Positions 10,696-40,963 of a DNA stretch of 64,000 nucleotides are shown one piece after another. The notes under the pieces were generated by a model, which was given only the letters and a program-made list of their open reading frames with translations, made no database searches and was not told where the DNA came from. The position numbers and the translations under genes are program-made. Position 1 is the stretch's first letter. Every line of letters begins with the position of its first letter. Source of the DNA: Halorubrum ruber (GTDB lineage: Archaea > Halobacteriota > Halobacteria > Halobacteriales > Haloferacaceae); the NCBI RefSeq assembly GCF_018228765.1, contig NZ_CP073695.1, positions 1,116,001-1,180,000 of the forward strand, read 5' to 3'.

Positions 10696-11991
10696 GTGAC
10701 GCTCGATCCGATCCACGTCGAGAACATCGCCCAGCTCGCGTACGGCATCGGCGGCGACGTGGACGCGACGGACCACGACGACCTCGCCGAGCGCGTGTGG
10801 CGCGAGTGGCTCCCCGAACTGCGCCGCGACGGGCGGGTCGTGATCGCGGCGCTCGGCGACCACGAGCGCCGCCGGGCCGCCATCGACGACGTGGCGCTCG
10901 CCGAGCGCCCGTTCGAGACCGTCCACGGCCTCGACTCGGGGACGATCAACCCGACGACATTTAAAAACGGCCTCGTCGTCGACGTCGCGCACGCGGCGAT
11001 GGCGAGCTCGCCGACGGATCTGGACCTCCACCGCGACCGCACCATCGTCGCCACCGTCCACGCCGGCGACTCGACCGCCGGCTTCGACAGCGAGTGGACC
11101 CGCCGCGACGAGGGGCACACCAAACAGCGCGTGCTCCACGTCCCCCGGGTGAACCGCTACGCGGAGCGGGTCGTCCACGCGCTCGCCCTCTACCTCGCGG
11201 AGGGGACCCACGCGCTCGACCGCGCCGACGAGGTCGACGAGCTGCTCGTCCTCGACGGCCCCATCTACCCGAAGGAGCTCTTCACCTGGGCCGACCGCGA
11301 CCCCGAGCTCGGCGCGCTCGCCCGCGAGGCGAAGCCCCGCGCGGTGATCGAGAAGTACGTCCGCCTCGTCGAGCGGTTCGCCGAGCGCGGCGTGCCGCTG
11401 GCCGGCTTCGTCAAGAACCCCGCGAGCGGCGCCGCGGTCCGGGCGCTCTCGCGCGCCGGCGTCGAGTCGCCGTGGCCCGACGACACGGCGCTTTTCACGC
11501 GGCTGCTGGAGCGGCGGGAGCAGGGTGACGGCGCCGAACCCGTCGGAACGGACGGTGACGACCCCGCGGCCGCCCGCGGCGCTCGCCTCGACGACGACCT
11601 CACGTTCACCACCTGGTTCCGCAGCCGCGGCGGCGCGGACGCGCCGATGGCCGCCGACGGCGACGCGCTCGGCGTCGAGCGCGAGCTCGACCCGGAGCTG
11701 TACGAGCCCACGTTCATGGTCGTCTACGACCCGCGGACCGACGTGACGTATAAGCTGGAGGCGCCGTACGCGTTCACCCGCGACGCGGCGACCCGCGAAC
11801 GGCTCACCCGGCAGGTGGTCACCGAGGTGGCGGCGACGCGCGGCCCGCCGGAGCCGGTCTCGAAGGCCGACGAGCTGGCGCGGATCTCCGCGACCGAGAA
11901 GGCCGCGCTCCGCCGGAAGTTCGAGGAGCGCCTCGGCAGCGACCAGCAGGCGACGTACGACGACCTGCGCTGGGGGAAAGAAACGTACTGA
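10696..11991 (+). CDS. nurA: NurA-domain DNA repair nuclease
   Basis: A 431-residue protein of the archaeal NurA family, the 5'-3' nuclease that works with the HerA helicase in end resection of double-strand breaks. The acidic metal-binding region VHGLDSGTIN lies near residue 78, further conserved aspartates occur in LLVLDGPIYPKEL, and the carboxy terminus carries basic helices. GTG is the chosen start because of the TATA box position. herA is not in this window. The last 87 bases of the gene are present a second time at 18875-18960. Confidence 0.82.
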   Translation: MTLDPIHVENIAQLAYGIGGDVDATDHDDLAERVWREWLPELRRDGRVVIAALGDHERRRAAIDDVALAERPFETVHGLDSGTINPTTFKNGLVVDVAHAAMASSPTDLDLHRDRTIVATVHAGDSTAGFDSEWTRRDEGHTKQRVLHVPRVNRYAERVVHALALYLAEGTHALDRADEVDELLVLDGPIYPKELFTWADRDPELGALAREAKPRAVIEKYVRLVERFAERGVPLAGFVKNPASGAAVRALSRAGVESPWPDDTALFTRLLERREQGDGAEPVGTDGDDPAAARGARLDDDLTFTTWFRSRGGADAPMAADGDALGVERELDPELYEPTFMVVYDPRTDVTYKLEAPYAFTRDAATRERLTRQVVTEVAATRGPPEPVSKADELARISATEKAALRRKFEERLGSDQQATYDDLRWGKETY

Positions 11992-12055
11992 ACCGCCGGC
12001 GAGACGGCGCGGGGCAGGGCGGGGCGAGACGGCGCGACCGACGCCGACGCCACCG

Positions 12056-13084
12056 TCACTCCGCGTCCGGGCGCATCGCCGCCCGCATCGCCACCGTCCC
12101 GATCTCCGCCGAATGGTCCGCGATCCGGCCGAGCGCGTCAAGCAGCCGCGTCAGCGCCCGTGCGTCGGCCGCCGTTCCGTCGAAAGACGCGTCCGAGTCG
12201 TCGAAGACGGCCGCTTCGAGGTTGTCGAGCCCGGCGGTCACCTCGTCGCGGTCCGCCAGCACCTCGTGCGCGTCCGTCGCGCTTGCCCCTTCGAGGACCG
12301 CCGTGGCGGCCGCCGCCACCAGCGCTTCGGCGTCGTCGACCGTCGCTTCGAGATCCGCGACGAGCCGGTCGCCGATCGCCGCCGAGGAGTCCCCGGCGGT
12401 CTCAGCGACCGTGACGCTCAGGTCGGCGACGGCCGTGAGTTCCCTCGCGGTTACGTAGTAGTCGAAGAGCGCCGGACGGTCCACGCCGAGGCGGTCGAGT
12501 TCCGCCATCGAGACGAGCGAACGGTTGAGGTGGCGGGCGACCATCTCGAACAGCCGGTCCGCCTCCGCCGCCCGCTCGCGGAGTCGTTCGAGGTCCGCGT
12601 CCCGGTCTCCGCAGAAGGCGACGGCGGCTTGTCTGAGCGCCGACCGAGCGACGAACCGGAGCTGGACGACCGTCTGGCGAACGGACACGTCCGCGGTCTC
12701 CAACACGCTGTGGAGCGCGAACTCGTCGGCGGTGTCGGCGGCGACCTCCGTCCCGACCAGCCCGCGGTTCGTCTCCCGCGCGGCGCGGAGCTGGCCGTCG
12801 GCAAGCGAGTCGCGGGGGGTGAGGGTCACCCGCTCGTAGCCGGTCGCGTAGGCCGCTCGAAGCAGCCGTCGCACGAGGGCCGCGTCGTCCCCGTCGACGT
12901 CGAGCGCGACGCCCTCCAACGCCGCGCCGTCCCGCTCGGAGCTCCGCACGACGATGGAGCCGTCGGCGTGCGCGTAGAGGCGCACCTCGGTCCCGGCGTC
13001 CAGACCGCGTTCGACGGCCCAGCGCTTGGGGACCGAGACGGTGTACGTCCCGCCGCCGACCCGCTGGAGTTTTCGGGTCTCCAT
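12056..13084 (-). CDS. AbrB/SpoVT-type DNA-binding domain fused to PhoU domain
   Basis: A 342-residue regulator. Residues 1-50 (METRKLQRVGGGTYTVSVPKRWA) form a swapped-hairpin AbrB-like DNA-binding domain. The remainder carries helical PhoU-type repeats, for example ADLSVTVAETAGDSSAAIGD. This archaeal architecture suggests a phosphate-responsive transcription factor, whereas the stand-alone PhoU next door is a sensor or adaptor. It is the last gene of the pst operon, 4 bases after phoU. Direct control of the operon is inferred from position only. Confidence 0.82.
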   Translation of the reverse strand: METRKLQRVGGGTYTVSVPKRWAVERGLDAGTEVRLYAHADGSIVVRSSERDGAALEGVALDVDGDDAALVRRLLRAAYATGYERVTLTPRDSLADGQLRAARETNRGLVGTEVAADTADEFALHSVLETADVSVRQTVVQLRFVARSALRQAAVAFCGDRDADLERLRERAAEADRLFEMVARHLNRSLVSMAELDRLGVDRPALFDYYVTARELTAVADLSVTVAETAGDSSAAIGDRLVADLEATVDDAEALVAAAATAVLEGASATDAHEVLADRDEVTAGLDNLEAAVFDDSDASFDGTAADARALTRLLDALGRIADHSAEIGTVAMRAAMRPDAE

Positions 13085-13088
13085 CGTC

Positions 13089-13781
13089 TCAGTAGAGGAG
13101 TTCGGCGTCGTGTTCGACCATGTACACCGTCCTCGCGGCGACGTTGACGGCGTGGTCGCCGACGCGCTCGACGTCGCGGACCGTGAGCAGCAGCCGGGAA
13201 ACGTCGTCGAGGACGCGCTCGACGCCCCAGGAGTCGTCCGCCACCTCGCCCGTCGCGCGCTCGACGAGGTCGCGGACGACCTGTTCGCTCGCGCGCTGAC
13301 ACAGGGCGTCGATCCGGTCGTCGCCGGCGTGGATCTCGCGGCACAGCTCGATGTCTCGCGTCCGGTAGGCGGTCAGCGCGTCCTCGACCGCGTCGCGCGC
13401 CTCGCGGCCGATCGCCACGGCGTCGACCGCCGGCGGCGACTCGCCGGGCTCCGCGAGCGCGTACCGTCCGAAGTTCGTCGCCAGGTCGCCGATCCGTTCG
13501 AGGTCAGTCAGGATCTTGAACGAGGCGGCCACGAACCGCAGGTCGCTCGCGACGGGCTGTTGGAGCGCGAAGAGGTCGATACAGTCCGCCTCGACGGAGA
13601 GGTACGCGTCGTTGATCGCGTCGTCGCCGTCGATGACCTCGCGGGCGACCGCCGGGTCGCCCGACTCTAAGGCGTCGAGTCCCGTCTCCAACTGGTCCAA
13701 GACCGCCTCGCCGAGCGCGACGACCCTGTCTCGGAGGTCGTCTAGCTCGGTGCGGTATCGGTCTCTGGGCACGCTGGTCAC
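13089..13781 (-). CDS. phoU: Phosphate signalling complex protein PhoU
   Basis: A 230-residue all-helical protein with two PhoU repeats. The signature regions are [22 protein letters not shown] and [21 protein letters not shown], whose acidic and asparagine residues bind metal clusters in characterised PhoU proteins. It should modulate the Pst transporter when phosphate is sufficient. The GTG start overlaps the end of pstB by four bases, pointing to translational coupling. A close paralogue lies at 48304-48978. Confidence 0.92.
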
Positions 13782-14674
13782 CCGAACTTGCCGGTGACGT
13801 AGTCCTCGACCCGCTGGCTCTCCGGGTTCTCGAATATCTTCTCCGTCTCGTCGTACTCGACGAGCTCGCCGCCGGTGAGGAACACCGCCGTCTGCTCGGA
13901 GATGCGCGCGGCCTGCTGCATGTTGTGCGTGACGATGACCACCGTGTACTCCTCCGCGAGCTCGTCGATCAGGTCCTCGATCTTGGCGGTGGCGATGGGG
14001 TCGAGCGCCGACGCCGGCTCGTCCATCAGGATGACCTCGGGGTCGGTCGCGAGACAGCGCGCGATGCAGAGCCGCTGCTGCTGGCCGCCCGACAGCCCGA
14101 GCGCGTTGTCGTCGAGCCGGTCGTTCACCTCCTCCCAGATGGCGGCCCGGCGGAGCGACCGCTCGACGAGGTCGTCGAGCTCCTCGGTGTCGTCGCGGCC
14201 GAGCGCGCGGGCCAGAAGCCCCGTTTCGAGGTCGCCGTGCTTCCGTGGCCCGTAGGAGACGTTGTCACGGATCGACTTCGGGAAGGGGTTGGGATTCTGG
14301 AACACCATCCCCACCCGCTTCCGGAGCTCCACGAGGTCGACGCCGTCGGCGTACACCTCCTCGCCGTCGAGCCTGACCGACCCCTCGACGCGCGCGCTCC
14401 GGATGCGGTCGTTCATGCGGTTGAGCGAGCGCAGGAACGTGGACTTCCCGCAGCCCGACGGGCCGATGAGCGCCGTCACGCTGCGCTCGGGGATCTCCAT
14501 CGAGATCCCGTCGAGCGCGTGGTCGCTGCCGTAGTACACGTCGAGGTCCTCGACCGCCATCTTCGGCGCGCCGCTGAACTGGTAGTTCGACCACTCGGGG
14601 TCGACGCGCTCGTCGGTCTCCCCGGTGGTGGTCTGTTCCGCCGCCGTCGTGGATTCGCTCGTAGCCTTACTCAT
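13778..14674 (-). CDS. pstB: Phosphate ABC transporter ATPase PstB
   Basis: A 298-residue ABC ATPase that powers phosphate import. Walker A is GPSGCGKST, the signature is LSGGQQQR, and Walker B is [12 protein letters not shown] with the switch histidine in IVTHNMQQA. The typical PstB phrases [11 protein letters not shown] and [13 protein letters not shown] are present. A haloarchaeal acidic extension of about 35 residues precedes the domain. It overlaps pstA by 8 bases and phoU by 4, so it sits in the middle of one transcript. Confidence 0.96.
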
Positions 14675-16226
14675 GCTGTAACCTCCGCCGGAAGTAGATG
14701 CGAGTGCCGACGCCGATCGCGTAGAAGCTCAAGACGACGGCCAGAAGGACGAACGCGGTCGCCCAGCCGAACTCCTCGTTGCCGCTCACGCCCGCCGTGA
14801 TCGTCGCGTAGAGCTGATACGGTAGCGCCGGCGCGCTCTGGAGGAGCGCGTCGTTGACGACGAACGGCGGCCGCGCGACGAACTGGAACGAACCCAGCAC
14901 GCTCGGCGCGTCGTCGCGCAGCCCGCCCGCCATCACGAGCAGGATCGGGGCCGTCTCCCCCGCGATCCGACCGACCCCGAGGATGACGCCGGTGACGATG
15001 CCCGGGAGCGCCGTCGGGACGACGACGCTTCGGATCGTCTCCCACTGGCTCACCCCGAGCGCGGCGCTTGCGTCGCGGTACTCGTCGGGGACGGCCTTGA
15101 TGGCCTCCCGACTGGTGATCGTCACCAGCGGGAGAAGCATGAACCCGAGCACTAACATCCCCGAGAGCAGCGACGTGGTGTTGCCGAACCGGGGGACGAG
15201 GAACGCGTAACCGAACAGGCCGAAGACGACGCTCGGCGTGCTCCAGAGGCCGTTCGTCGCGACCTCGACCAGCTGCGTGAACCGGCCGCGCTCAGCGTAC
15301 TCGGAGAGGAAGACGGCCGCGCCGACGGCCAGCGGGACGCCGACGAGGACGGCGCCGATCACGAGCCACACCGTCCCGACGACGGCGGGGAAGACGCCGT
15401 TCGCCACGTCCGGCCGGAAGTTGTACCCGTCCATGACGAACGGCCAGCGGAACTCGAAGGCGAGCGGGTCGAAGACGATCCCCTGCGTCGCCCGGCCGAA
15501 CCCCTTCACGCCGATGAAGAGGATCAGCGTCGCCAGGACGACGAGCATCCCGATCGCGTTGAGCCCGACGAGGAAGTACGCCGCCGACTGCCGGCCCGCG
15601 GCGCCGAATCCGCTCCGGGCCGACACCGCCGCCCAGCAGGCGACGAGCGACGCCACCCCAGCGAGCACCGGGATGACCATGTAGCCGGGGAACGTGACTG
15701 AGAACCCCTCTGGCGCCCACGTCCAGCCGGCGGTAACGACGTCGGCGAGGACGAGCGCGCCGACGAGCAGCGCGAGTCCGCCCGCGGGGAGCGTCGTCCC
15801 GAGGTCCTCGCGGGCGAGCGTGACGAAGCCGCCGACGGCCAGCCCCGCGACCAGCGCGGCCGGTAGGGAGACGACAAGCGGGAGCCCGAGCGTCTGGGAC
15901 GCCGTCAGGCCTCCCGCAGCGAGCGCGATCCCGCCGAATCCGAGCGCCGGACCGACGGTCCCGCGCTCCTCCGGGGTCGTCTCGAAGGTCCCGAGGAACG
16001 AGCCGACGCCGAGGCCGACGACCGTCAGACCCGCCGCGGCGAGCGCGAGCGCGACCCACTCGAACGCATTGAGTCCGAAGGCGGCGGTGTCGCCGGTGAT
16101 CACGCGGGCGATGGCGAGGGCCGACAGGCCGATGACGGTCATACCGACGCCGACGACGCTGTCGGTCAGACGGACGAAGCCGTCGCCTTGGTCGCTTCGA
16201 AGCGAGCGGTTGGTGACGGTGCTCAC
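14667..16226 (-). CDS. pstA: Phosphate ABC transporter permease PstA
   Basis: A 519-residue permease, much longer than bacterial PstA (~280-300). The amino-terminal ~230 residues add about six extra hydrophobic segments. The canonical permease domain then follows with [21 protein letters not shown] and the EAA-type loop [21 protein letters not shown]. It forms the membrane channel with PstC. The start overlaps the pstC stop by four bases. The extra membrane region is common in haloarchaeal homologues, and its purpose is unknown. Confidence 0.93.
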
Positions 16227-17335
16227 GCTTGGCCCTCCAGTTTCCGTTTCATTCGCGATTCGACCGCCTGCGAGACGATGCTGAGGAACATCACGGAGAC
16301 GAAAAGCACCACGCCGGCCGCGAACAGCGCCTGCATGTGCATCCCGTCGGCGTTACCGTACTGGCTCGCGATGAGGCTGGTCAGCGAGATGGTGTTCCCG
16401 AAGACGTTGTACAGCGGCTCGGGCAGCTGGACCACGTTCGAGAGGATCACGGTCGCGGCCATCGTCTCGCCGACGGCGCGTCCCACGCCGAGCAGGACCG
16501 CCGCCGAGACGCCCGAGAACGATGCCGGCATCGTGATCCCCTTGATCGTCTGCCAGTCGGTCGCGCCGAGCGCCAGCGAGCCGTCCTTCATCGAGTTGGG
16601 GACGCTCGTCAGCGCGTCTTCGGCCACGGAGACGACCGTCGGCAGCGCCATCAGCCCGATGACGACGCCGACGATGGCCATGTTTCCGAGGCCAGGCGTG
16701 CCGAGGTGGTCGTAGACGAACGGCGAGATAAGGACGAATCCGAGCCACCCGTACACGATCGAGGGGATGCCGGCGAGTATCTCGATGCCGGGCTTCACCG
16801 ATTCGCGCACGGTCGGCGGGGCGATCTCCGCGATGAAGACCGCGCCCGCGACGCCGAGCGGGCCGGCGACGAGCATCGCGATGACGGTCGTCATCAGCGT
16901 GCCCCAGATCATCGGGGTCAGCGAGTAGACGTCCCCGCTCGTGCTCCAGAGCTCTCCGACGCCGGGGATGAGGGTGACTCCGAACACGCGGACCGGCTCG
17001 GTGAGCCCGAAGATCCGTATCCCCATGTGCTGAAACACGGGTATCGAGCGCGCGATCAGGAAGATCGAGATGAGCCCCAAGATGACCGTCGTCGCGACCG
17101 TCGCGAGGAAGGTCACCGACTTGACCGTGGCCGCCTGGTGGTTGAACCACCCGTACGCCGTCGCGGCGAGAAAGCCCGAGACAGGGACGACGGTCAGCGT
17201 CGAGTTCGAGAGGAAGAGCCCGAACGCGACGAGGAGACACGCCCCGCCTACGAGACCGGTGAGGAGGACCCCACGGTCCGCGTCCGTGACGCTTCGTCCC
17301 TCGAAGCCGGCGATGCTAGTGTTACTGAGTTTCAT
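16223..17335 (-). CDS. pstC: Phosphate ABC transporter permease PstC
   Basis: A 370-residue permease with about eight membrane segments. Family markers are GIEILAGIPSIVYGWLGFV and the EAA loop EDALTSVPNSMKDGSLALGATDW, which contacts PstB. ATG 17335 (MKLSNTSIAGFEG) is chosen; the longer frame adds 48 unlikely residues. It lies about 160 bases after pstS and overlaps pstA, so it is the second gene of the operon. Confidence 0.94.
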   Translation of the reverse strand: MKLSNTSIAGFEGRSVTDADRGVLLTGLVGGACLLVAFGLFLSNSTLTVVPVSGFLAATAYGWFNHQAATVKSVTFLATVATTVILGLISIFLIARSIPVFQHMGIRIFGLTEPVRVFGVTLIPGVGELWSTSGDVYSLTPMIWGTLMTTVIAMLVAGPLGVAGAVFIAEIAPPTVRESVKPGIEILAGIPSIVYGWLGFVLISPFVYDHLGTPGLGNMAIVGVVIGLMALPTVVSVAEDALTSVPNSMKDGSLALGATDWQTIKGITMPASFSGVSAAVLLGVGRAVGETMAATVILSNVVQLPEPLYNVFGNTISLTSLIASQYGNADGMHMQALFAAGVVLFVSVMFLSIVSQAVESRMKRKLEGQA

Positions 17336-17494
17336 TCGTGCGTGTGTGGTGAATCGGTGAACGGCTCGTTCGTATACTGAAACATGAATGGCCTTCTCGT
17401 GGCCCGAAAGATGGGTCGCCGCGTCGGCCGGACGTCGGCGCGGAATCTCCGGAGACCGGCGCGCCGAAGAACGGCGCACCGCGAGCCCTCGGCG

Positions 17495-18643
17495 TTACGC
17501 CGACGGTTCCGGCAGCGCGTCGATCTGCTCCTGACGGAACTCGTCCTCGAGGGGGAGGTAGTCGTTCGGCTCGACGAACATCTCCTGTCCGTACTCGCTG
17601 AGGATCATCCGGATGAACGCCGCCTCCTTGTTGGAGGTGCCGTCCCAGGTGTAACAGTGGAGCGCGCGCGAGAGCGGGTAATCGAGCGTGCCGAGGTTCT
17701 CGCCGTAGCGGTACGTGGTGCCCTCGATGGTGAGCGCGACCGGCGGCACGCCGCCGTCGGGCTCGAGGAACGCCAGCGCGATGTACGCGATGGAGTTGTC
17801 AGTGTTGTCGACCGTCGAGGCGACCTGCTGGTTCTGCCCCTGACGGACGTCGACGCCGCCCATCGACGCGTCCGGGTCGCCGAGGACGTTGACGCGGAAC
17901 GAGGTGTCGGTCCCCGAGCCCTCGGCGCGGCCGACGGCGTTGATCTCGCGGTCGGGACCGCCGAGCTCCGACCAGTTGGTGACGTCTCCCCGGTAGATGT
18001 CCTGAACGTCTTCGAGGGTGAGCTCAGTGACGCCCGCGTCGTAGATCTCTCGGCTGACGACGATCGGCTGAGCGTCGACCGCGACGACGTGGTCCGTGAA
18101 CGGTTCGAGTTCCTCCTCGCTCCGATCCGGGAACTCCGCGCTGACGGGCGCGGACGCGTCACCGATGTCGACCTGGCCGCGCTCGAGCTTCTCCAGCCCG
18201 ACGCCGGTGTGGTTGAGGCCGATACTCGTGAAGAACGGGGGCGTCCCCTCCTCGCCGCTGGGTTCGAAGCCGTAGAGGCCCGCCCAGTAGTCGGCCATGT
18301 TCTGGTCCGTGTCGATGCCGTACTGCCCGGGGCCCCAGTACTCCTCGTCGGAGGCGGGCGCGTTCCCGTTCCAGAGCGACCCCGCGAGGCTCGTGATCGG
18401 GTACACGGTCGAAGAGCCGTCCGCGGTCAGGGGCGAGGTGTCTGCGCTCTCGTCCTCGCCGTCGCCGCCGTCGCCGCCGTCGCCGCCGTCGCTACCGTCG
18501 CTTCCGTCGCTACCGTCGCTACCGTCGCCGCCGTCGCTCCCGCCCGAACAGCCCGCGAGGCCGGCCGCTCCCACGGCTCCGGTCGTGACGAGAATCTTAC
18601 GACGCGATACTAAGTCCGCCAGACGCTCTCCGTCCTGCGTCAT
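17495..18643 (-). CDS. pstS: Phosphate-binding lipoprotein PstS
   Basis: A 382-residue extracellular phosphate receptor. A twin-arginine signal (SRRKILVTTGAVGAAGLAGC) ends in a lipobox; a low-complexity Gly/Ser/Asp linker of ~35 residues then leads to the binding domain. Ligand loops of the PstS fold are visible: TADGSSTVYPIT and GRAEGSGTDTSFR. It delivers phosphate to PstCA. It is the first gene of the operon and has two TATA-like boxes upstream. The ATG at 18643 is preferred to a GTG one codon earlier. Confidence 0.94.
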   Translation of the reverse strand: MTQDGERLADLVSRRKILVTTGAVGAAGLAGCSGGSDGGDGSDGSDGSDGSDGGDGGDGGDGEDESADTSPLTADGSSTVYPITSLAGSLWNGNAPASDEEYWGPGQYGIDTDQNMADYWAGLYGFEPSGEEGTPPFFTSIGLNHTGVGLEKLERGQVDIGDASAPVSAEFPDRSEEELEPFTDHVVAVDAQPIVVSREIYDAGVTELTLEDVQDIYRGDVTNWSELGGPDREINAVGRAEGSGTDTSFRVNVLGDPDASMGGVDVRQGQNQQVASTVDNTDNSIAYIALAFLEPDGGVPPVALTIEGTTYRYGENLGTLDYPLSRALHCYTWDGTSNKEAAFIRMILSEYGQEMFVEPNDYLPLEDEFRQEQIDALPEPSA

Positions 18644-18665
18644 CACGTGGACGCTCGGGAAGCCA

Positions 18666-18685
18666 CATAAAAGCCGTTTATAATA
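18666..18685 (-). promoter_or_regulatory. Putative tandem promoters of the pst operon
   Basis: On the minus strand two TATA-like boxes, TTTTATG (18666-18672) and TATTATAA (18678-18685), lie about 23-42 bases upstream of the pstS ATG. The spacing allows two nearby transcription starts; a phosphate-responsive operator is expected but I cannot point to one. Confidence 0.4.
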
Positions 18686-18874
18686 GGGGTACGAGACCGG
18701 ACTGATACCACCGGACTACTCTGACCAGTACGGAGGTCACATACCTCTATTTACTCGATATATATTTTCCTCTGTCTTCGGTCCTCAGTTCGCGCTCGAG
18801 AGTGCGTTCGAGCGGTATGGTTGCGAACTGGATCAAATCTCGGTCCCGGAGAAGGCTCGGTCCCGGAGATGGCG

Positions 18875-18960
18875 GCGCTCGGTCGGAAGTTCGAAAGCGC
18901 CTCGGCAGCGACCAGCAGGCGACGTACGACGACCTGCGCTGGGGGAAAGACGGGTACTGA
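18875..18960 (+). pseudogene. Duplicated 3' end of nurA (gene fragment)
   Basis: These 86 bases match the end of nurA (11905-11991). Positions 18896-18950 are identical to 11927-11981 over 55 bases, the stop TGA is kept, and one base is lost near 18895, so the frame is broken. A 14-bp direct repeat (18839-18852 and 18856-18869) lies just upstream. No promoter or start belongs to it. The rest of the 18644-19020 gap holds only the pst promoter and the TATA box of the next gene. Confidence 0.85.
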
Positions 18961-18991
18961 GCGGTCGGCTCGGCTCCCGTGCGGTCCGGGA

Positions 18992-18998
18992 TTTTTAT
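18992..18998 (+). promoter_or_regulatory. TATA-like box of the MscS gene
   Basis: TTTTTAT lies 23-29 bases upstream of the ATG at 19021 and supports that start over the longer frame. Confidence 0.45.
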
Positions 18999-19020
18999 CG
19001 GAGCGACGCGACGCGACCGT

Positions 19021-19893
19021 ATGATCCGGCTGACGGCGCTGCCAAGGTGGGCGACAGAACTGGTGTCGGCGTACGACCGCGTGCTCTCGGAGCTGTTCTG
19101 GTTTCTCGTCGCGCTCGCGGCCGTCTACGTCCTCGGACAGGTCGTCGTCGTGCCGTTCGTCGTCCGCGTCGTGCGGGCGCGGAACCGCAACAACCCGACG
19201 ATCGAGACGGCGGTCAGGACGTACGTCCGAGTGGCGCTGATCGGGTTTGCGACGCTGACGGGCGTGATAGCCGCCGGCTATGGGGCCGTCCTCACCGACT
19301 CGGCGATCGTCATCGCGGCGATCACCTTCGTCTTCGGCATCGCCGGCCAGCAGGTGTTCGGGTCGCTCATCAGCGGGATCTTCCTCGTGGCCGACCCCGA
19401 CTTCAACGTCGGCGACTGGATCGCGTGGCCCGGCGGAGAGGGGACCGTCGAGGCCGTCGACTTCCGCGTGACGCGGGTCCGGACCCCGGACAACGAGACG
19501 ATATCGGTGCCGAACACCGAACTCACGAGCAACGCGCTCACCCGCCCGTACGGCCGGGACACTTACCGGATCACGGAGACGGTGTACGTCGCCTACGACG
19601 AGGACGTCGAGCGGGCGCTCATGACGCTCCGCTCGGTCGCGACCGACACGGGAGCGGTCCTTGACGACCCGGCGCCGAACGCGCGCGTCCTCGACCTCGG
19701 CGAGAACGCGATCACGGTCCAGGCGGAGCTGTGGGTCGACGACCCCGGAGACAGGGACGTGGCGACCCTCCGGTCCGACTTCCGCCGCGAGGTGAAGCGT
19801 CGGTTCGACGAGGAGGGAATCGCGATCGCGCCCCCGTCGGCGCAGTCGCTCTCGGGCGAACTCGCCGTCACGGAGCGCTCGGCCGGCGGGTGA
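19021..19893 (+). CDS. MscS-family mechanosensitive ion channel
   Basis: A 290-residue protein with three membrane helices (~20-120), the last being the pore-lining helix (FVFGIAGQQVFGSLISGIFL). The soluble beta domain follows (FNVGDWIAWPGGEGTVEAVDFRVTRVRT, then the NTELTSNALTRP motif). It should open on membrane tension to release solutes during hypo-osmotic shock. The start is set by the TATA box. It is a single gene, convergent with the CPBP protease gene. Confidence 0.88.
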   Translation: MIRLTALPRWATELVSAYDRVLSELFWFLVALAAVYVLGQVVVVPFVVRVVRARNRNNPTIETAVRTYVRVALIGFATLTGVIAAGYGAVLTDSAIVIAAITFVFGIAGQQVFGSLISGIFLVADPDFNVGDWIAWPGGEGTVEAVDFRVTRVRTPDNETISVPNTELTSNALTRPYGRDTYRITETVYVAYDEDVERALMTLRSVATDTGAVLDDPAPNARVLDLGENAITVQAELWVDDPGDRDVATLRSDFRREVKRRFDEEGIAIAPPSAQSLSGELAVTERSAGG

Positions 19894-19942: not shown

Positions 19943-20677
19943 TCAGAGCGCCTGCGCGAGCAGCACCACGTAGATGGTGGCGTTGTACACGCCGTGCGCC
20001 AGTCCCGGGACCACGACGTTGTCCGTCCACTCGTAGAGCGCGCCGAGGACCGACCCGAGCACGACGACGACGCCGACGTACGCCCACCGCTCGACCGGGG
20101 TGCCGGAGACGGAGGGGAGGTGGATCAGTCCGAACGCGAGGCTCGCGATAAGCACCGCGGGGACCGCGTCGAACGCGCGCCGGACGCCGCCCTGGACGAC
20201 GCCGCGGAACAGCAGCTCCTCTACGGGTCCGACCACCGCGAGCGACACCGCGATCATCGCGAGGTAGTAGGTGACCGGGTCGCCCGCGGGGACGACCGCC
20301 TGGTTCTGGCCGGTCGAGAGCCCGACCTGATCGAGCGCGAACAGCGCCCCGTACTGGAACGCGAAGAGGACGGCCCCGCCGCCGACGACTATCGCCGCCT
20401 GGCGCGCGTCGGGTCGGGAAACGCGGGCGAGCTCCCACTCGCCCGTGATCGCGAGGTACCCCGCGACCGCGACCGCGAACCCGCCGAACTGGAGCACCGT
20501 CCGGAGCAGTTGGTAGCCGGTCGACCCCTCCGTGACCAGCCCGATCGAGACCGCCAGGTCCGCTGCCGGGACGGTGATCGCGCTCGCGACGAGGAGCGCG
20601 AACACGATCGCGAACAGCGCGCTCGCGACCCGGAGCACTCGCTCGGCGACCGCCGAGCCAGGTGCGTCGTCGCTCAT
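19943..20677 (-). CDS. CPBP-family intramembrane glutamic endopeptidase
   Basis: A 244-residue membrane protein with about seven hydrophobic segments. The Rce1/CAAX-type motifs are present: EELLFRG near residue 152 (paired glutamates and arginine), then a histidine in FGLIHLP and a final His/Asn region (GLAHGVYNATIY). Substrates in archaea are unknown; processing of membrane proteins or bacteriocin-like immunity are family possibilities. It stands alone, 87 bases from pgi on the same strand. Confidence 0.85.
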   Translation of the reverse strand: MSDDAPGSAVAERVLRVASALFAIVFALLVASAITVPAADLAVSIGLVTEGSTGYQLLRTVLQFGGFAVAVAGYLAITGEWELARVSRPDARQAAIVVGGGAVLFAFQYGALFALDQVGLSTGQNQAVVPAGDPVTYYLAMIAVSLAVVGPVEELLFRGVVQGGVRRAFDAVPAVLIASLAFGLIHLPSVSGTPVERWAYVGVVVVLGSVLGALYEWTDNVVVPGLAHGVYNATIYVVLLAQAL

Positions 20678-20764
20678 TGGGGGTCGTACGGCGCCCCGAG
20701 GCTTAGACGCACCGGATGTCGACTCGGCGTCGCGCGCGTTCGAGCCGGACGCCGAGCCCGCCGC

Positions 20765-22051
20765 TCACTCGATCCGCAGCTCGCGCTTCTCGTCGACCGC
20801 CTCGGCCTCGGCGAAGTCTCCGCCGCCGAGCAGCCCGCGTGCGGCCTTCTTCCCCCACTCGACCGCGGGCTGCGTGAACGTCGAGACGCTCGCGAGCTCG
20901 CCGTAGAGGACGCAGGCCGCCTCCATGCCATAGAGCAGCTCGCCGAGCGCCCGCTCGTCGACGCGGTCGATCTCGACGCGCACGTTGGGGACGTCCGCGG
21001 CCGCGAGGCTCGCCTCGGTCGCCTCGAACTCGGCGTCGAGCAGGCCGCCGAGCGACGACCCGCCGAGGTACGCGAGTCCGTCCAGCTCGGTCTCTGGGAT
21101 CCCCACGTCGGCACGCTCGGTCGGTCGCACGAGCGTCACCAGCTTGTCCGGCGGGCCGGCGCGGTATAACTGGAGCTGGGAGTGCTGGTCGGTCGCGCCG
21201 AGCGCGCGCGCCGGCGTCTGCCCGAGCCCGTCCTTCCCGAGGCTCTCGGCCCACAGCTGGGCGAACCACTCCGCGAACGTCTCCAGCGACTCGGCGTACG
21301 GCATCACGGCGTTGGTGCGCGCGCCGCGCTCCGCGAGCGCGTACGTCGCCGCGCCGTAGGCGTACGCGGGTGATTCGTACAGCGACCCCGCGAGCGACTC
21401 CATTCCGTCGCGGCCGCCCGCGAGGACGGCCTCGACGTCGTGGCCCTGAAGGGCCGCGACCGCGAGCCCGACCGTCGACAGCGCCGAGAACCGCCCGGGA
21501 ACCCCGTCCGGGACCGGCAGCGACGGGAGGTCGTGGCGGTCCGCCAGCTGTCGGAGGTTCCCCGCCTCGCCCGTCGTGACGAGCGTGCGCTCGGTCCAGT
21601 CGACGCCCGCGTCGGCCATCGCCTCGCGCACGACGAGGAAGTTCGCGAGCGTCTCGGCGGTCGTCCCCGACTTCGAGACGACGTTGACGACGGTGTCGTC
21701 GAGCGGGAGGTCGGCGAGCAGCGCCCGCGTGTCGTCGGGGTCGACGTTGTCGAGAACGTACGCGTCCACGTCGCTCGACAGGGCGTTCGACAGCGTCGCC
21801 GCGCCGAGCGCGCTCCCGCCGATGCCGACCGTCAGCACCGCCTCGGGGCGGTCGAACCCGTCGACCGCGGCGTAGATCGCGTCCGGGTCGGCGGCCTCCG
21901 GCAGGTTCAGGGCGGCGTACCCGAACTCGTCGTCGGCCATGCCGGCCGCGATCCGCTCGTGCGCGGCCGCGACGCGGTCGTCGAGTCTGTCCAGCGTTGC
22001 CGTCGTGAGCCCGGGGGTCGTCTCCAAGGCGTTTCCGAGGTCCACTCGCAT
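20765..22051 (-). CDS. pgi: Glucose-6-phosphate isomerase
   Basis: A 428-residue PGI of the SIS fold. It interconverts glucose-6-phosphate and fructose-6-phosphate in gluconeogenesis and sugar metabolism. The sugar-phosphate sites are GIGGSALGAATL and VVSKSGTTAETL, followed by GRFSALSTVG, the catalytic-region stretch LGATDQHSQLQLY and the terminal lysine region FTQPAVEWGKKAARGLL. It is shorter than animal and bacterial enzymes, as in other archaeal/Bacillus-type PGIs. With gnd at 62.5 kb it provides hexose-phosphate enzymes in this window. Confidence 0.95.
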   Translation of the reverse strand: MRVDLGNALETTPGLTTATLDRLDDRVAAAHERIAAGMADDEFGYAALNLPEAADPDAIYAAVDGFDRPEAVLTVGIGGSALGAATLSNALSSDVDAYVLDNVDPDDTRALLADLPLDDTVVNVVSKSGTTAETLANFLVVREAMADAGVDWTERTLVTTGEAGNLRQLADRHDLPSLPVPDGVPGRFSALSTVGLAVAALQGHDVEAVLAGGRDGMESLAGSLYESPAYAYGAATYALAERGARTNAVMPYAESLETFAEWFAQLWAESLGKDGLGQTPARALGATDQHSQLQLYRAGPPDKLVTLVRPTERADVGIPETELDGLAYLGGSSLGGLLDAEFEATEASLAAADVPNVRVEIDRVDERALGELLYGMEAACVLYGELASVSTFTQPAVEWGKKAARGLLGGGDFAEAEAVDEKRELRIE

Positions 22052-40523: not shown

Positions 40524-40963
40524 TTTATAAATAGTTGAACAGGCGTTTATAAATAGCTGATAGCGGAGCGGCGGCGAATACCTCCAAAGTCCCAGCCGCT
40601 CGGCGATACGTGACTGGCTCTCGACAAGCGGAGACCGCCTCCAAAGCCCCAGCCGCGAGGACTCGCGCGGCTTGCTGTCGTTCGAGACGCCGCCGGCGTC
40701 TCGTGATGACGAAACGGCTTCGCCGTTTCGAACCACGCTCCTCGCTCGTTCGCTTCGCTCACTCGCTGCGGTGCTTGCGGCGCCGTGCTTCGCCCTCGCG
40801 GCTGCCCCTTTGTATCCCGCCCCGCCCAGCACAGCAACCGCGCCTCACGCCTCCCCAGCCTCGTCGGTCGCCTCCGCTTCGCTCCGGCGACCGACTCCCT
40901 CGCGCGTGCTTCTCGCGCCCGAGGGGCGCTCGAAGGCACGCGCCACCGCGTCTGTTTATAAAC
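40524..40963 (-). repeat. Dispersed structured element, copy B
   Basis: Read on the minus strand, this copy runs from a GTTTATAAAC box (40954-40963) through GCGGTGGCGCGTGCC, CGGAGCGAAGCGGAG and GAGGCTGGGGAGG to CAAAGGGGCAG, then the long hairpin, then two tail units containing GGCTGG..CTTTGGAGG, and ends in two TTTATAAA boxes near 40524 and 40546. Its core is most like copy D. It fills the gap between folD and the nucleotidase gene. No inverted ends are visible. Frames predicted inside it are artefacts of base composition. Confidence 0.75.
40642..40812 (-). other. Long hairpin of element copy B
   Basis: CAAAG/CTTTG outer pairs (40642-40646 with 40808-40812), a three-base internal loop and an 11-bp stem (40650-40660 with 40794-40804). 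The loop holds two smaller perfect hairpins at 40683-40703 and 40710-40730, separated by TGATGA. Confidence 0.75.

Follow-up and report, generated by a model that had tools for sequence, protein, structure and literature searches.

Why does the end of nurA occur twice in Halorubrum ruber, once in the intact gene and once in front of mscS, with a pst operon between the two copies? Within the window, as we call the whole 64,000-nucleotide stretch analysed here, the intact resident gene (10696–11991, plus strand; PF09376) encodes a protein of 431 residues and shares 98.3% DNA identity with nurA of the sister strain Halorubrum sp. Atlit-26R (L093). Its bases 11927–11981 are identical at 55 of 55 positions to bases 18896–18950 of the same strand, at an offset of 6969, and the similarity continues to the stop codon. 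In the whole 3.02-Mb genome the 55-bp repeat occurs at these two places only (E values of 2.1e-55 and 2.6e-31) and is thus not a chance match. The genes between the repeats (12056–18646, minus strand) were identified by Pfam as pstS, pstC, pstA, pstB, phoU and a gene for an AbrB/MazE-PhoU regulator. Alignment, genome-wide search and domain annotation therefore bear out an earlier sequence-only reading, which had reported a nurA 3′ end repeated before mscS with 55 identical bases and the pst operon enclosed by the repeats. All genes were named from Pfam families (NurA, AbrB/MazE-PhoU regulator, PhoU, PstB, PstA, PstC, PstS, MscS, Rce1-like (CPBP) and PGI), and the pst subunit names were assigned from family and gene order. 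The N-terminal part of pstS (18445–18550) contains a run of 9-base repeats of the CGCCGCCGT type, encoding a Gly/Ser/Asp-rich linker.

The copy in front of mscS is the decaying 3′ remnant of a second nurA (~18824–18960, plus strand). It had been described as starting at 18875; the 3′ end is indeed shared up to the stop codon, but similarity actually reaches back to about 18824. This upstream part is weakly similar to nurA: none of 300 shuffles matched its score against the nurA genes of two relatives, and 7 of 300 were as good against the window's own nurA. A 1-base deletion near 18895 puts the sequence upstream of 18895 out of frame, in line with the earlier description of a copy broken by one base, and from 18895 to the TGA at 18958–18960 the remnant translates as KRLGSDQQATYDDLRWGKDGY followed by the stop. 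The 14-bp direct repeat said to precede the copy is present, yet it is one portion of a 17-bp tandem duplication that lies within the remnant (18840–18873, plus strand; CTCGGTCCCGGAGAAGG, CTCGGTCCCGGAGATGG), whereas nurA of the relative G023 has the stretch as a single copy (CTCGGCCACCGAGAAGG). The remnant probably has no function of its own.

The two copies differ in their last codons. Intact nurA ends in GAA ACG TAC TGA (KETY), which at the protein level is the ending of Atlit-26R, and the remnant ends in GAC GGG TAC TGA (KDGY), the same as G023 nurA. The likeness to G023 continues beyond the stop codon: the spacer before mscS (18961–19020, plus strand) aligns ungapped with the nurA-mscS spacer of G023, and mscS retains its own upstream spacer. 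This spacer contains a T-rich box, TTTTTATC (~18992–18999, plus strand), possibly the mscS promoter, going by its position alone.

We compared the window with its relatives in 250-bp bins. From upstream of the pst operon through nurA, the closest relative is Atlit-26R (95–100% in the nurA bins). The pst block between 13000 and 18500 shares 84–96% DNA identity with H. rubrum YC87, and 12000–13000 shares less (68–81%); across the order beyond H. rubrum, the best long matches listed for the operon reach ~72–80%. From 18840 to ~20750, G023 is closest (88–96%), through mscS (19021–19893, plus strand; PF00924, PF21082; 95% protein identity to G023) and the CPBP (Rce1-like) protease gene (19943–20677, minus strand; PF02517), whose bins at 20000–20749 show 93–96% DNA identity to G023 versus 76–92% to Atlit-26R. 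Within the 3′ half of pgi, informative sites mark a right crossover zone (20700–21400) in which the closest relative changes from G023 back to the sister, the return to Atlit-26R falling at ~20.9–21.4 kb. The switches between bins thus place the remnant at the left-hand margin of a tract of G023 type. The block borders coincide with changes of closest relative, as expected for import by homologous recombination. The join between the sequence upstream of the pst operon and the nurA stump (~18785–18824) looks non-homologous. Judged by these sequence comparisons, both flanks and the pst operon would be parts of a horizontally assembled locus.

The arrangement of the locus in other genomes points the same way. 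nurA-CPBP-pgi is the basic Halorubrum order, found in most relatives and also in Atlit-26R, which lacks both pst and mscS here. The order nurA-mscS-CPBP-pgi without pst is present in G023, G019, H. halodurans Cb34 (G014; L121) and Halobellus captivus ZY8 (L122), in the last of which mscS is broken across two frames. H. rubrum YC87 (L125/G011) has nurA-pst-mscS-CPBP-pgi, with no nurA remnant detectable above shuffles between pst and mscS. The sequence-only reading had called for a check of relatives for the fragment: a second nurA tail occurs in 1 of 52 Halorubrum genomes, that of the window itself, and the end of the remnant and its spacer match G023. When the junction of pst and remnant (18640–19020) was compared with 243 genomes of the order, only its nurA-like or its mscS-side portion matched elsewhere; H. 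rubrum lies outside this sample, and its junction was read directly. Among the relatives we found neither of two candidate intermediates: nurA-pst-CPBP, or nurA-pst-stump-mscS flanked by sequence of G023 type.

Depending on the species, the interval from nurA to CPBP/pgi is empty or holds mscS, pst plus mscS, or other sequence. The nurA-CPBP interval (loci L093–L131 and L156) is a hotspot whose length ranges from near zero (L099) to ~4.7 kb (L104). In Atlit-26R, the spacer (L093:10951–11120) carries three TTATAAAT(A/T)GC motifs, 57 bp apart, in a repeated unit. G074 has one related unit after its nurA, and the window has single matches to the motif at 40547 and 60690; these units may represent a family of intergenic repeats in Halorubrum.

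The operon between the repeats probably took over from an older one at another position. A related pst operon, with ~75% DNA identity between the nurA-linked version and this usual Halorubrum operon, lies 68–91 kb downstream of nurA in G023, G028, G031 and G074. In the genome of the window that operon is gone: its flanks, found conserved in both G074 and G023, meet directly, the matching stretches being separated by 27 bases (G000:C1:1212419 and 1212447), at a site ~83 kb downstream of the pst operon in the window. The loss amounts to about 8 kb, neighbours included. H. rubrum matches straight across the same junction and likewise lacks the old operon, having only the nurA-linked version and one more distant second operon; a second pst operon, again more distant, is also retained in the genome of the window, near 2.735 Mb. 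Both genomes combine acquisition of the nurA-linked pst with disappearance of the older operon.

Taken together, the stump very probably marks the boundary of a nurA-mscS tract that was imported. Its KDGY end, the spacer, mscS and CPBP are all of the G023 type, which makes the copy the edge of an imported nurA-mscS-CPBP tract and not a young copy of resident nurA. The segment from the nurA tail through mscS and CPBP to the 3′ part of pgi would have come from another Halorubrum lineage by homologous recombination. Extant genomes display the starting point, the nurA-mscS-CPBP-pgi arrangement. The pst DNA may then have inserted between nurA and mscS through one homologous join, in or near nurA, and one non-homologous join at its other side, inside the nurA 3′ end; to the left nurA would stay intact, and to the right a stump of the former nurA would remain. 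In a third step, the resident nurA/CPBP junction would have been replaced by the assembled block, or by two parts in turn, with outer crossovers near the nurA 3′ end and within pgi. The last step, decay of the stump through the 1-bp deletion and the 17-bp tandem duplication, can be read from the window and is as expected in the absence of selection as a protein. On this scheme, a nurA-mscS chromosome would have supplied the stump, mscS and CPBP, another source pst, and the resident chromosome nurA, the very end of which was possibly exchanged.

Entry of pst into a nurA-mscS locus is favoured by H. rubrum, where pst lies between nurA and mscS, and by the lack of any nurA-pst-CPBP genome among those seen; the exact order of pst entry and block replacement nevertheless stands at about even chances. 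Two observations on other genomes count against the import of a nurA-mscS tract: no intermediate genome was found, and H. rubrum, whose pst occupies the corresponding position, has no detectable nurA stump. We regard the nurA repeat as an unremarkable trace of gene exchange, left in an interval that is a hotspot of gene gain.

A third point against import alone is that it does not account for the 55 bases, which match the resident gene throughout but depart from G023 at 3 positions, so either conversion or an exchanged nurA end must be added to it. The earlier reading had taken the high identity as a sign of a recent copy or of conversion; the former is not supported, and conversion is a candidate explanation for the 55-bp run. 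It would have acted between the stump and the intact gene and homogenised this run after import, as an addition to the border reading and not a replacement for it. Near-clade species pairs usually differ at 3–4 positions over the 55-bp region and are identical in 2 of 78 pairs, in comparison with 0 differences here. Of the 22 differences between the nurA of the window and that of Atlit-26R, 5 fall in the last 65 bases of the gene (1.1 expected, P = 0.004), and no such excess appears at P < 0.05 in pairs of other genomes. Both tests were chosen after the data had been seen, so they support conversion weakly, and the stretch is short. The same pattern would be explained by a crossover with the donor in the nurA end, and the direction of any conversion is not readable. 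We put conversion at slightly below an even chance.

Recombination between the repeats, which had been proposed as a route to loss of the phosphate operon, is mechanically possible as a prediction from the sequence. By sequence arithmetic, a crossover in the 55 bases removes 6,969 bp, leaves nurA in frame with the ending KFEERLGSDQQATYDDLRWGKDGY, like G023 nurA, and would put nurA beside mscS again. If conversion kept the repeat identical, the foreign pst operon could be a reversible module whose excision leaves a complete nurA beside mscS; populations, or chromosome copies within one polyploid cell, would then differ in pst carriage. We consider such a module a long shot.

The identity of the 55 bases, together with the finding that the exact 55-mer occurs in no other genome among those compared, might also be read as a recent duplication of the resident nurA end inside this genome, the copy event that the earlier reading had favoured. 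This is highly unlikely, since the end of the copy, its spacer and the gene after it follow the nurA-mscS type of G023, the intact nurA follows the sister strain, and the upstream half is diverged and frame-broken. The end and the spacer, both of G023 type, go most of the way to refuting a fresh duplication of resident nurA. Slightly less likely still is site-specific integration of an element at the nurA 3′ end, with the repeats as attachment sites: a gene 3′ end is repeated on either side of the insert, as such an event would leave it, but the right repeat runs on into the spacer and mscS of another lineage. Integrase-driven insertion was rejected, there being no integrase between the repeats, where the genes at 12056–18646 are all of the pst/phoU type. 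An assembly artefact is the least credible reading, for the genome is one 3.02-Mb contig, each piece is present in independent genomes, and a misassembled nurA could not yield the copy's own mutations and G023-type context.

The locus is a well-documented single case of how a haloarchaeal mosaic locus is built, within a phenomenon already known in general. Interspecies recombination is frequent in haloarchaea (PMC4500145). Two foreign blocks meet in a gene end, where a scar persists in the form of the stump, and in exchange for a core nutrient operon the genome has taken up a distant version at another position. It also carries a caution, in that a partial gene repeat may mark the border of imported DNA and not a duplication.

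The closest parallel is offered by the homeocassettes of Halorubrum ezzemoulense, alternative islands between the same core genes whose exchange is thought to be homologous, via conserved flanks (PMC11078007). As in those islands, variable content, including a foreign transporter operon, lies between core genes (here nurA and CPBP/pgi), with exchange through conserved flanks, and the scar at the border of the variable nurA-CPBP interval would be of the same kind as the island exchange described there. Unlike the homeocassettes, the replaced pst lay elsewhere, the foreign operon sitting at nurA and the ancestral one having been lost ~83 kb away, and an extra scar, the nurA stump, is left behind. 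For the joins themselves, homology-facilitated illegitimate recombination is the nearest model: a homologous join at one end combined with an illegitimate one at the other is known from natural competence in bacteria and from conjugation of E. coli (PMC3240628), and such a combination leaves a stump of just this kind. The model predicts an insert with one homologous side and one non-homologous side, the latter here inside the nurA end; the difference from the cases described in that source is that ours concerns an archaeon and would be read from the final structure alone. Haloferax volcanii is known to carry out microhomology end joining (PMC2700283).
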